From positions 13,910 through 40,139 of the forward strand of contig DGHD01000053.1 of NCBI GenBank assembly GCA_002392505.1: a stretch of DNA of 26,230 nt, written 5' to 3'. Below are positions 19,128 to 26,230 of the stretch, piece after piece. Made by a program: the position numbers and the translations under genes. Origin of the DNA: Christensenella sp. UBA3857 (GTDB taxonomy: Bacteria; Bacillota; Clostridia; Christensenellales; CAG-138). The stretch's first letter is position 1. Each line of letters starts with the position of its first letter. The notes under the pieces were generated by a model. That model was not told the DNA's origin. It worked only from the letters and a program-made list of their open reading frames with translations, and made no database searches.

Positions 19128-19147
19128 CGGAGGAAATAAATCATGAA
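19106..19147 (+). repeat. Direct repeat, right copy (end of small membrane gene to pgk start)
   Basis: This is the second copy of the repeat at 18756-18796. It covers the last codons of the small membrane gene (NMKQI and stop), the GGAGG site and the first codons of pgk-tpi. The spacing between copies is 350 bp. Confidence 0.6.
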
Positions 19148-21077
19148 CAAAATGACGGTCAAGGATCTTAACGTAACCGGCAAGCGCGTACTCGTGCGCG
19201 TCGACTTCAACGTGCCCCTTAACAAGGAGCTCAGGATCGACGACGAGAGCCGTATTATAGGCGCTCTCCCCACGATCAAATACCTTGTAGAGCGCGGCGC
19301 AAAGGTCATCCTCTGCTCGCATCTCGGACGTCCCAAGGGCAAGTTCGTTCCCGAAATGAGCCTTAAGCCCGTGGCGAACAGGCTTCAGGAGCTCCTGCCC
19401 GACGTTAACGTGGTTTTCGCGAACGACGTTATCGGCGAAGACGCGAAGGCGAAGGTCGAGGCGCTCAAGGAGGGCGAGATAGTGCTTCTTGAGAATCTGC
19501 GCTTCCATGCCGAGGAGGAGAAGAACGATCCCGAATTCGCAAAGAAGCTCGCTTCCTATGCCGATATCTACGTTTCCGACGCGTTCGGCACCGTGCACCG
19601 CGCCCATGCTTCCACCGTGGGCGTAGCCGATTATCTGCCCGCCGTATGCGGCTTCCTCATCGAGAAGGAGCTCGGCTTCATGGGCAAGGCGCTCGAGGAT
19701 CCGGACCGTCCCTTCGTCGCAATACTCGGCGGCAAAAAGGTCGGCGACAAGATCGGCGTCATCACCAACCTGCTGGGTAAATGCGATACGCTGCTCATCG
19801 GCGGCGCAATGAGCTATACCTTCTACCGCGCGATGGGGCTTAACGTGGGCAACTCCCTCGTTGACGAAGCCTCCATCGAGCTTGCCAAGTCCCTTATGGA
19901 CGCCGCCAAGGAGAAGGGCGTGCGCCTGATGCTCCCGATCGACTGCGTCGTCGCTTCCGAATTCTCCGAAGCTGCCGAGATCAAGACCGTGCCCTATGAC
20001 GCCATGCCCGACGGGTTCGAGGGTCTCGATATCGGCGAAGCCACCGCTAAGCTCTACGGCGATATCATCAAGGAAGCCAAGACCGTCGTCTGGAACGGTC
20101 CGATGGGCGTTTTCGAGATGGCTCCCTTCGCGAAGGGCACCGAGGCGGTCGCTCTCGCCTGTGCGGAGTGCCACGGCAAGACCATCATCGGCGGCGGCGA
20201 TTCCGCTTCCGCGGTCAACAAGTTCGGTCTCGGCAGCAGGATGAGCCATATCTCCACCGGCGGCGGCGCCTCCCTCGAGTTCCTGGAGGGCAAGGTGCTT
20301 CCCGGCGTAGCGGCGCTGAATGACAAAACGGCGCGCCGCAAGCTCATCGCCGGAAACTGGAAGATGAACATGACCCCCTCCGAGGCGGTCTCCCTCGTCA
20401 AGGAGCTGCTTCCCCTCGTAAAAGAGGCGGAGGCGGAGGTCGTCGTCTGCCCGCCTTACGTCGATATCCCCTTCGTCGCGCCCCTCTTAAAGGGCTCCAA
20501 CGTCCGCCTTGGCTCCCAGAGCATCCATTGGGCGGAAAAGGGCGCCTTCACCGGCGAGATCAGCGCGAAGATGCTTCTCGAGCTCGGCGTTGAGTACGCC
20601 ATCATCGGTCACAGCGAGCGCCGTCAGTACTTCGGCGAAACGGATGAGAGCGTAAACGCCCGCATAAAGGCGGCTCTCGGCGCGAATATCACCCCCATCG
20701 TCTGCGTCGGCGAAACGCTCGAGCAGCGCGAGGCGGGCGTTACGGACGAGTTCCTTGCAACCCAGGTCAAGGGCGCGTTCGCGGGGATCGACGCGGATGA
20801 CGCGGCGAAGGTCGTAATAGCTTACGAGCCCATCTGGGCGATCGGCACCGGCAAGACCGCCTCCGATGAGGAAGCCGACCGCACCATCGGCGCGATCCGC
20901 AAGGTCTGCGGCGAGCTTTACGGCTGCGCGTTCGCGAAGAACGTACGCATCCTCTACGGCGGCTCCATGAACGCCAAGAACGCTCACGGCTTAAAGTCCA
21001 TGGAGAATATCGACGGCGGCCTCATCGGCGGCGCGAGCTTAAAGCCCGTTGATTTCAGCCACGTCGTACTGGACTGA
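19143..21077 (+). CDS. pgk-tpiA: Fused phosphoglycerate kinase-triosephosphate isomerase
   Basis: This 644-aa protein joins two glycolytic enzymes in one frame. Residues 1-395 are a complete [50 protein letters not shown] and GGGDSASAV. Residues 396-644 are a complete TPI: GNWKMN (404-409), the catalytic His490 in [11 protein letters not shown], the catalytic Glu562 in [12 protein letters not shown], and YGGSM near the end. There is no linker: PGK's usual end (VAALNDK) runs straight into [12 protein letters not shown]. Codon 396 is ACG (20328-20330) where a stand-alone TPI would have ATG. The start ATG has GGAGG 9 nt upstream. A PGK-TPI fusion is known from Thermotoga maritima; I am not certain how widespread it is in Clostridia. 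The next gene but one, gpmI, follows in the same pathway. Confidence 0.95.
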
Positions 21078-25295: not shown

Positions 25296-25650
25296 GGGGG
25301 CGTAAATGGTTTCGACGGGGACCGTGGATGCCGGATAAGCGAGCCGAAGCCCCGTGCTTCGTTAAAAACGGGAAACTCTATAAATATAACTGACAATAAC
25401 AGCTATATGCCCGTCGCTGCCTAACGGCGCGACTGTCCGCCTTAAGCTTCCCACGGCGTAAGATACGGGCATCATCAATGTGGGGAACCAACCCGGGCGT
25501 GCCTCGTCCCGGGCGGGATCAAGGGGCTGCCGGATCCGTAAGCCCGCCGATGGGCGTGCGGTGAAGAAAGACTCAATGCGTCGGCTATGCTCGTAGAAAG
25601 TTTTGCAGACAGATCTTCGGACAGGAGTTCGACTCTCCTCGCCTCCACCA
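25296..25650 (+). ncRNA. ssrA: Transfer-messenger RNA (tmRNA)
   Basis: tmRNA rescues stalled ribosomes and tags the stalled peptide for degradation. The 5' end GGGGGCG (25296-25302) pairs with CGCCTCC (25640-25646) as the acceptor stem, followed by A and an encoded CCA (25648-25650). The conserved GTAAATGGTTTCGACGGGG block follows the 5' end, and the T arm AGGAG-TTCGACT-CTCCT is at 25623-25639. The total length of 355 nt is normal. The tag frame ends with GCT GCC TAA at 25422-25424. By analogy with related tmRNAs the tag starts at GAC (25392) and reads DNNSYMPVAA, with aspartate instead of the usual alanine first. The resume point is inferred. It acts with smpB, encoded 0.9 kb upstream. Confidence 0.95.
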
Positions 25651-25819
25651 CGAACCGGGAGGGATACCAACGGGTATCCCTCCCGGTTCGTAATAGAAGC
25701 CGTTGTCGAGCTCCTCGAGAATTTGCGGAGCAAATTCTTTAAGCGCTGCGCCGAGGAAAAGAACGATAAGAAAAGAGAAATGCGCAGCGCAGGAGTTCCG
25801 ACTCTCCTCGCCTCCACCA
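25651..25819 (+). mobile_element. 169-bp hairpin-rich insertion at the tmRNA 3' end (putative integration remnant)
   Basis: The segment begins at the base after the tmRNA CCA and ends with a second, slightly decayed tmRNA 3' end. It holds a perfect 18-bp hairpin with an AACG loop (25651-25668/25673-25690), a 9-bp hairpin (25718-25726/25730-25738) and a 9-bp GCGCTGCGC/GCGCAGCGC stem (25743-25751/25782-25790) enclosing 30 purine-rich bases. No T tract follows the first hairpin, so it is not an ordinary terminator. The arrangement matches what is left when an element integrates at a tRNA or tmRNA 3' end: gene restored upstream, displaced end downstream. It has no coding capacity I trust. Mobile origin is inference. 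Confidence 0.55.
25790..25819 (+). repeat. Displaced duplicate of the tmRNA 3' end (attachment-site-like)
   Basis: This 30-bp stretch repeats tmRNA positions 25622-25650 with a single inserted C in the T loop (TTCCGACT instead of TTCGACT). It includes the acceptor 3' strand and CCA. Nothing else of the tmRNA is present, so it cannot be a functional RNA. Together with 25622-25650 it forms a direct repeat bounding the 169-bp insert. Confidence 0.8.
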
Positions 25820-25822
25820 TCA

Positions 25823-25862
25823 AAGAAACCTCTTTTGTCTACCAAGGCAAAAGAGGTTTCTT
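25823..25862 (+). terminator. Probable original terminator of ssrA
   Basis: AAGAAACCTCTTTTG (25823-25837) pairs perfectly with CAAAAGAGGTTTCTT (25848-25862), and three further pairs close an ACCA loop. Read as CCTCTTTTG/CAAAAGAGG with an upstream A tract and downstream TTTCTT, it is a normal intrinsic terminator. It begins 3 nt after the displaced CCA, the place expected for the tmRNA terminator before the insertion. Confidence 0.65.
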
Positions 25863-25956
25863 ACTGCATTTCGGACAAAAAACGACCGGATAAAATAGTA
25901 ACAAGCAAAATCAGGCTTCGGAATAGACGAACGGTTGCATCACAGCTTTTTTGCGT

Positions 25957-25985
25957 TTGACGCTGCCTATGGAGTTTGGTATAAT
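25957..25985 (+). promoter_or_regulatory. Sigma-A type promoter of the GNAT gene
   Basis: TTGACG (25957-25962), a 17-bp spacer and TATAAT (25980-25985) lie 34 bp before the acetyltransferase start. This is one of the closest matches to consensus in the window. Between the tmRNA terminator and this promoter (25863-25956) I see no feature. Confidence 0.85.
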
Positions 25986-26019
25986 GAATTCGGTAAATCC
26001 GGATTTGAGGAGGCTTAAA

Positions 26020-26230
26020 ATGACAGGCAGATATGAACTGGAAAACAAAGGGATAAGACTTGAAAAGGTGAATGACAATAACTTCGTTGATCTGATGGAG
26101 CTTGAAGTTGCTGAATCGCAGAAAGACTACGTTGCTTCGAACACGGTGAGTATGGCTCAGGCTTATGCCGTAAATGCAAGCGGCAGATTTGTTCAGTGTT
26201 TCGGTATCTACGATGGAGACACAGCGGTCG
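26020..26230 (+). CDS. GNAT-family N-acetyltransferase, N-terminal part (runs off the right edge)
   Basis: The first 70 codons are present. The start is ATG at 26020, with GAGGAGG 7 nt upstream. The sequence contains IRLEKVNDNNFVDLMELEV, then SQKDYVASNTVSMAQAYA and FGIYDGDTAVV. This matches the beginning of GNAT enzymes related to diamine/spermidine acetyltransferases (BltD or PaiA-like), where QKDFVASN and a following GIYDGD strand are typical. The acetyl-CoA-binding motif lies beyond the window, so substrate cannot be judged. It has its own strong promoter. The TipAS-type regulator upstream is on the other strand and separated by ssrA, so a regulatory link is speculative. Confidence 0.82.
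   Translation, partial: MTGRYELENKGIRLEKVNDNNFVDLMELEVAESQKDYVASNTVSMAQAYAVNASGRFVQCFGIYDGDTAV

Follow-up and report, generated by a model that had tools for sequence, protein, structure and literature searches.

The tmRNA gene of Christensenella sp. UBA3857 is followed, directly behind its CCA end, by a 149-nt insert and, beyond that, by a repeat of its own last 20 nt, from the T loop to CCA. Inserts with the same fold recur behind tRNA genes of the genus, and most of them carry three bases that are identical to the T stem of the gene they follow. On balance, we think that these units are probably attP-sized, non-autonomous elements which are moved in trans, most likely by tyrosine integrases acting in T loops. 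The stretch analysed (the window, 26,230 nt) comes from a draft genome of 1.42 Mb that is 53.5% complete, and the contig stops at 26230, 411 nt past the tail copy.

The intact tmRNA gene (ssrA), the target of the insertion, lies at 25296..25650 on the forward strand, like the parts of the insert and of the sequence behind it that are described below. It is detected by ARAGORN and by Rfam (RF00023, 164.2 bits) and encodes the tag peptide DNNSYMPVAA. The T-loop TTC of the gene (25628-25630) is followed by a 20-nt tail which runs from the GA of the T loop to CCA (25631-25650). On the far side of the insert, one finds TTC again (25796-25798), a single inserted C (25799), and a copy of the tail that is identical at 20/20 positions (25800-25819). 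The two ends thus form a perfect direct repeat of 21 nt (25630-25650 and 25799-25819) with a spacing of 169 nt. The distance from TTC to CCA is 20 nt in 88 of 91 tRNA and tmRNA genes, the 88 being those in which the T-loop motif was found. The first-pass annotation had described a duplicated tmRNA 3' end whose copy contains one additional C, and the direct repeat and the reading of the T loop agree on this point. It had also proposed that the arrangement is that of an integration into the 3' end of tmRNA, and this is supported: the intact gene and a displaced 3' fragment flank the insert, and the same arrangement recurs at tRNA genes.

The insert begins with a hairpin of 18 bp, identified as an inverted repeat and by folding, that abuts CCA (25651..25690); in other units CCA is likewise followed by hairpins, which by eye differ in sequence. 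A left arm (25705..25715), in which GAGCTCCT (25708-25715) is the inverted code, forms with 25791-25802 an outer pair that encloses two helices. H1 (25717..25739) pairs GAGAATTTGC with GCAAATTCTT (25717-25726 with 25730-25739), and H2 (25743..25790), which has a purine-rich loop, pairs GCGCTGCGC with GCGCAGCGC (25743-25751 with 25782-25790). The right arm (25791..25799) consists of AGGAGTTC and the inserted C, and contains GAGTTC, as does the T arm of the tmRNA. The presence of inverted repeats, noted at first reading, is confirmed; those found are the 18-bp hairpin, H1, H2 and the outer arm pair. Folded as RNA, the 169 nt reach −77.6 kcal/mol (z of −7.2, none of 200 shuffled sequences being equally good), and a 120-nt piece folded as DNA has a z of −2.9 (2 of 200 shuffles equally good). 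A simple scan for terminators flagged nothing that resembles an intrinsic terminator at 25651-25690 or at 25820-25862. There is no integrase gene inside the 149-nt insert; the overlapping open reading frames of at least 90 residues all extend past it to either side. Elsewhere in the window, a single 644-residue frame (19143-21077) contains both phosphoglycerate kinase (PF00162, E 2e-162) and triosephosphate isomerase (PF00121, E 8e-91).

Copies of a gene's own tail are common behind tRNA genes. In the genome of the window, they occur behind Gly(TCC), Ala, Pro, Ser, Trp, Lys and Gln. Neighbourhoods of tRNA genes were surveyed in this genome and in three more species of the genus, keeping the 91 tRNA and tmRNA genes that have no other tRNA within 80 nt downstream; Lys of the window's genome, which contains Ns, is not among the 91, and dropping ten genes that are followed by fewer than 150 nt left 81. 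With a threshold of at least 15/17 over the 17 nt from T loop to discriminator, within 1000 nt, a copy of the own tail was found for 34/81 genes (7/16 in the window's genome) and none for 47/81. The control, in which tail segments were compared with the regions downstream of other, dissimilar tRNA genes, gave 16 matches in 5810 comparisons. At 14/17 or better, the values are 38/81 and 46/5810; inverted copies of the T arm (at least 12/15) occur at 18/81 genes, compared to 230/5810 in the control. Since 24 of the 34 copies begin 134-156 nt behind CCA, the usual repeating unit is about 160 bp long. The suggestion that the insert is a non-autonomous element is thus strengthened by copies at many tRNA 3' ends, mostly bounded by the 3' sequence of the host gene itself.

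The same surroundings hold other sequences. By eye, further classes of inserts are seen in loci L054, L140, L021, L020, L035, L058, L053, L044 and L042, with other cores and either the same tail geometry or only an inverted copy of the T arm; a core reading GGCGCGGGAGTGAATGA...TCAGAGCCGCGCC is common to the inserts at the tmRNA genes of G004 and G013 and at tRNA-Gln of G000. Genes for a four-helix-bundle protein (PF05635, 23S rRNA intervening-sequence protein) lie inside arrays behind Ser and Trp tRNA genes (L157:3574-3981, E 3e-25; L117:3250-3618 on the minus strand, E 1e-28; and, by eye, L349 behind tRNA-Trp). In six loci with units, only tRNA reached the Rfam gathering score; matches below it include mir-1255 on a hairpin (E 1.7e-4). 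A 6S RNA-like match (L054:1350-1501, 35.1 bits for a gathering score of 46.4, E 5.4e-4) is located between tRNA-Val and tRNA-Gln in the genome of the window.

The first-pass annotation had proposed to look for an empty ssrA site in close relatives, and empty sites were found at both the tmRNA and the tRNA-Gly(TCC) genes. In G001, the CCA of tRNA-Gly(TCC) is directly followed by TAGCGAG (TAGCGAGTATTGAC), while in G000 and G004 a 141-nt insert and a perfect 20-nt tail copy stand before TAGCGAGTATTGAC. The two inserts differ from each other (72% identity over the 101 nt that align). From the start of TAGCGAGTATTGAC onwards, G000 is 88% identical to G001 over 295 nt, and G004 is 73% identical to G001 over 147 nt. 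The tmRNA gene of G004 is filled with a 134-nt insert and a perfect tail copy, and the sequence that follows the copy is found directly behind CCA in G001, G002, G003, G006 and G012 (75% identity to G001 over 162 nt). The occupancy of the tmRNA site therefore varies among close relatives. The insert of G004 belongs to another class than that of the window, and the tmRNA genes of G011, G013 and G032 carry further inserts. By eye, the empty tmRNA site (L008, L015, L022, L024 and L026) has a short coding end behind CCA in five species, reading for example ..NQTNFYFWPSGFAVKVKI*, which is perhaps a remnant of an older integration. In L101 and L040, beyond the Gly(TCC) tail, a reverse-strand gene after the TAGCGAG hairpin resembles, by eye, the end of a large serine recombinase.

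Alignment of 25 inserts of the window's kind (class A) gives a three-helix structure that is paired in 88.8% of the cells, a percentage which is inflated by the choice of the H2 columns from the same alignment, changes on both sides of a pair being less affected. The covariation is 0.437, compared to a mean of 0.150 after shuffling (none of 500 shuffles as high) and to 0.03-0.11 when the structure is slid along the alignment; it fits selection at the DNA or at the RNA level alike. The covariance model R1, built from these 25 units, matches the window at 25691..25809 with 63.7 bits; the window's own unit is among the 25. R1 finds class A units in 12 of the 13 genomes of the genus, the genome without a unit being G010. 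With stricter filters, they occur in 15 of 103 genomes of the family and in 3 of 26 genera; the matches in G023 are short and weak. R1 gave 118 matches in 96 stretches, 21 of which were dropped (19 opposite-strand doubles and 2 incomplete ones at contig ends), leaving 97 units. For 84 of them, some tRNA tail of the genus matches at 13/17 or better, and the other 13 were left out of the analysis of the code. These 84 pairs of element and target span 17 tRNA or tmRNA types in 10 genomes. The elements measure about 141-149 nt plus the 20-nt tail, and near-identical class A copies occur in tandem, for example four behind Met in G009.

The arms of the fold contain the signature of the host. The right arm ends in TTC ahead of the tail in 81/84 units, and the TTC is separated from the tail by one base in 69 of these 81 (A in 53, T in 14), by two in 7 and by none in 5. 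The core is a 6-nt motif, nnnTTC, in which nnn equals the bases of the host's T stem, where host means the tRNA species to which the tail beyond the unit belongs. The nnn of the right arm matches the host in 62/81 units, compared to a mean of 22.8 when hosts are permuted across tRNA species (0/5000 as high), and the inverted left arm, immediately 5' of H1 and also readable in 81/84 units, matches in 73/81 (permuted mean of 19.8, 0/5000 as high); the kinship between units makes this test too generous. A fourth base is not matched to the host (11/81 compared to 5.4, a value reached by 611 of 5000 permutations, and 6/81 compared to 6.7). Relatedness does not account for this sharp edge after three bases. 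Among the 43 units located at most 60 nt behind a tRNA, there are 39 in which no other tRNA fits the tail better than the host does, and 30 have a tail that matches the host at 15/17 or better. The exceptions are L126, L170, L186 and L173, the clear one being L186, where Ser(CGA) of G007 carries a tail of the Ser(GCT) type.

The sequence beyond the tail copy (25820-25862) had been taken for the probable original ssrA terminator. This assignment is not supported, since the same hairpin occurs at other tRNA genes and is not specific to ssrA: it lies directly behind the CCA of Val and Asn in G004 and of Gln in G001, and behind displaced tails of Ser in G000 and Arg in G004. In a search of the window's genome, it was found behind a displaced tRNA-Ser(GGA) tail. 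It is instead the left end of a separate family, which we call the F cassette. The hairpin has 16 listed contexts, including one that is merely a palindromic copy read on the other strand; most of them abut CCA or a displaced tail, and two are in tandem. In the window, the hairpin is followed by a sigma-70-like promoter (25957..25985, 11/12 matches) and an open reading frame cut by the contig end (26020..26230). Over its first 63 aligned residues, this ORF shares 34 with a GNAT acetyltransferase frame that lies further down the tRNA-Ser array of the same genome, and the GNAT ORF of L002 matches PF00583 (E 8e-15); the 70-residue piece in the window itself has no Pfam match. In the examples that were read (L128, L193, L179 and L002), the hairpin precedes a TATAAT-like box and a small ORF; the ORF in L179 is a GNAT acetyltransferase (E 1.5e-12), and small ORFs in L002 and L128 have no Pfam match. 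The sites of the family are L128:186 and 989, L193:2301 and 2809, L179:2478, L002:1531 and 25820-26230 of the window, and they share a conserved left hairpin (AGAAACCTCTTTTGTCTACC...), a promoter-like box, a small ORF and, by eye, similar 3' ends. They are in tandem in two arrays behind tRNA genes. The family resembles gene cassettes whose insertion behind CA produces no copy of the tail, and the order of the array suggests that the F cassette probably was in place before the class A unit entered.

Which enzyme could move the class A units was approached through their distribution, and the absences quoted here come from draft assemblies, which makes them weak evidence. Matches to the integrase family PF00589 occur in 12 of the 13 genomes of the genus. 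The sole match in G000 is a frame of 117 residues; G005 has no match, yet it has three class A units (its assembly is 61% complete), and G010 has integrase matches and no class A unit. Behind tRNA-Ser(GCT) of G008, a PF00589 match lies about 200 nt behind the tRNA, and an identical 20-nt tail stands behind TTC 5.8 kb further on. This element indicates that integrases which use the TTC/tail exchange point live in the genus; its right end is devoid of the class A fold. Repeats of TTGGCAAC were noticed near two integrase ends. Cas1 was found in 4 of the 13 draft genomes, and not in G000, G001, G003 and G004, which have units; the Y1 (HUH) transposase was found in 5 of 13, and not in the unit-bearing G003, G004, G007 and G012. 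Neither co-occurs with the units, and both were rejected as the engine. A reverse transcriptase (PF00078) is found in 10 of 13 genomes, and all eight that were tested belong to the PADLOC type UG26 (E 1e-160 or better). As the engine it is not supported either: G010 has it and no class A unit, and it was not detected in G003 and G012, whose assemblies do carry units. The reverse transcriptase loci (L295-L302, for example L298:1330-2553) have a conserved leader of about 200 nt upstream that by eye resembles a structured RNA, and five of the eight contain tRNA-Arg(CCT). In L298, L300, L302 and L297, downstream of the reverse transcriptase gene, 5' halves of tRNA-Arg(CCT), broken near the anticodon, precede the intact gene (by eye); they may be remains of further elements for which the anticodon loop is the site.

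A viral contig of IMG/VR (L303) contains a tRNA-Pro, an adjoining integrase and phage genes and, 12.3 kb further on, a class A fold followed by a Pro tail. Its last gene stops after residue 87, where the fold begins, while in 12 other viral contigs with relatives of this gene the frame continues for 89-92 codons past the break, and R1 has no match (E of at most 1) in these 12 stretches. The intact gene of the relatives led us to reject the idea that the fold is the natural right end of the prophage. Going by these sequence comparisons, L303 is best read as a deletion that joined the prophage to an existing class A unit. Used as a query in viral contigs, the integrase of L303 matched only L303 itself. 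The last gene is related to 13 proteins in the protein database and had no match in the 103 genomes of the family, in a search that carried no control known to match. Of two patterns made from the fold motif, one matched no viral contig, and the other matched five, none of which has an R1 match.

The origin of the displaced tail bears on the mechanism. In the model put forward for genomic islands, the element brings a gene end that restores the gene, and the old end is displaced (PMC4383910). The most similar core is at the same tRNA type for 31/84 units (8.4 after permutation, 0/500 as high) and at a gene with the same T-stem code for 47/84 (21.2, 0/500), the units of L157 being labelled Ser(GGA), the tRNA they follow. 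This sharing of tRNA type and code above chance favours a tail carried by the element. On the other hand, the nearest neighbour of 53/84 units is at another tRNA type (with the same code in 16), which counts against it. So does a pair of units behind Gly(TCC) and Gly(CCC) in G004: their cores are 96% identical and each displaced tail is that of its own host, while a carried tail should be misplaced in one of the two tRNAs. These host-specific tails might, however, have arisen by gene conversion between the two glycine loci.

According to the reading that we favour, the element would insert at the T loop or 3' end of tRNA and tmRNA genes, after which the gene would be intact, with the element behind CCA and a copy of its last 20 nt on the far side. 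The exchange point would be in the T loop (TTC^GA), the class A fold would be a recombination arm, and a candidate tyrosine integrase encoded elsewhere would carry out the recombination; we infer mobilisation in trans. Specificity would be set by the identity of the cores of element and target, by analogy with what is reported for phage Ms6. The junction of the G008 element and the Ms6 precedent favour a T-loop tyrosine integrase acting in trans. No integrase is linked to class A units. The extra T-loop base, exactly one in most units, also counts against an integrase, since it is unexpected from a simple double-strand exchange, as do the 47/81 genes that have no copy at 15/17 or better and the 4/43 tails that the host does not match best. 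These observations leave some room, distinctly less than for integrases, for a transposition that duplicates its target site. One strand would be cut at TTC^GA and the other behind CCA, and each insertion would copy the tail from the host; the agent would be an integrase of unknown type, a DDE enzyme whose cuts are widely staggered, or target-primed reverse transcription. The host-specific tails of the G004 glycine pair, the fit of 39/43 first-position tails to their host, the sharing of cores between tRNA species (53/84) and the precedent of casposons at tRNA genes (PMC6614799) agree with this proposal, but no candidate enzyme was found: Cas1 was not detected in four unit-bearing genomes, and UG26 does not follow the units (G003 and G012 versus G010). 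Insertion may also be guided, a speculative and rather doubtful idea, in which the left arm, GAAnnn, located at the base of H1, would serve as a guide of 6 nt by pairing with the nnnTTC in the T arm of a tRNA. As RNA or single-stranded DNA, the guide would direct cutting at TTC^GA; a change of three bases would retarget the element, and the 20-nt tail would be copied from each new host.

Explanations that dispense with a mobile family fare worse. As an alternative, the first-pass annotation had suggested that the insert could be a scar left when an island was deleted. It is true that the same tRNA genes serve integrases and prophages as sites, and the deletion in L303 joined a prophage to a class A fold, but independent deletions, each leaving a left and a right end, would not give a single covarying fold, one usual size and near-identical tandem copies; we disfavour scars in general and hold them to be unlikely. 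It is more improbable still that the units are fast-changing but immobile RNA or terminator modules maintained by the host, even though they place a hairpin behind CCA and neighbours share the tRNA type (31/84 versus 8.4): empty sites exist in close relatives, different classes occupy one gene across species, and near-identical units lie at different genes. A local duplication that long ago copied the 3' end of tmRNA, with no link to other loci, would be enough for the tail copy alone, and has next to no chance of being the explanation, given that the same fold and geometry occur at many other tRNA genes.

The units share features with several known systems. Integron cassettes have folded attC sites whose structure is conserved over sequence, paired arms and tandem arrays. 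The class A units share paired arms and tandem arrays with them, and perhaps also an end that is conserved in structure more than in sequence, with the gene cassettes of family F in the same arrays, but their target is the T arm of a tRNA rather than attI, their core is matched to the host and they carry no gene. At the tyrT locus of E. coli, 178-bp repeats contain the 3' end of tRNA-Tyr (rtT RNA). The units similarly stand in tandem behind a tRNA gene and include its end each time, but tyrT is a single locus, whereas the units have a fold in common and form a family spread over many tRNA genes. The repeats derived from REP/RAYT and IS200/IS605 are, like the units, short and hairpin-based, with an arm resembling a guide at the base of a hairpin next to the end, but Y1 was not found in the unit-bearing G003, G004, G007 and G012.

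Islands integrated into tRNA and tmRNA genes by tyrosine integrases (of the Islander type, or phage Ms6) have an intact target and a displaced 3' fragment, as the units do. The attP of an island is about 250 bp long and contains a fragment of the tDNA (PMC4383910); phage Ms6 integrates in T loops of tRNA-Ala, and re-matching its attP core redirected it to other tRNA-Ala T loops (PMC1762012). An exchange point in the T loop and a specificity set by the identity of attP core and target would thus be common to both. Unlike islands, the units are about 161 bp long, have no integrase, form multi-unit arrays, use one fold across many tRNA species and usually show a single additional base in the displaced T loop. 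Casposons duplicate their target when they insert at tRNA genes, and most members of family 2 are located in such genes (PMC6614799). The regeneration of a repeat-like tail beside a fixed leader is reminiscent of casposon and Cas1 spacer integration, but the units are tiny and have a core code, and Cas1 was not found in G000, G001, G003 and G004. Searches of the open-access PMC literature, a scope outside which most subscription papers fall, listed no paper recognised as a description of such elements.

If this interpretation is true, tRNA genes across a genus of gut Clostridia have been colonised by integrating elements that are close to the size of an attachment site, with an exact match of three bases between element and host gene. 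The units are easily missed, because many of them sit at contig ends, and gene cassettes with one small gene each occupy the same places. The 84 pairs of element and target are a natural set for the study of integrase specificity, and the colonisation itself would make it testable how integrative elements switch from one tRNA gene to another without killing the cell.
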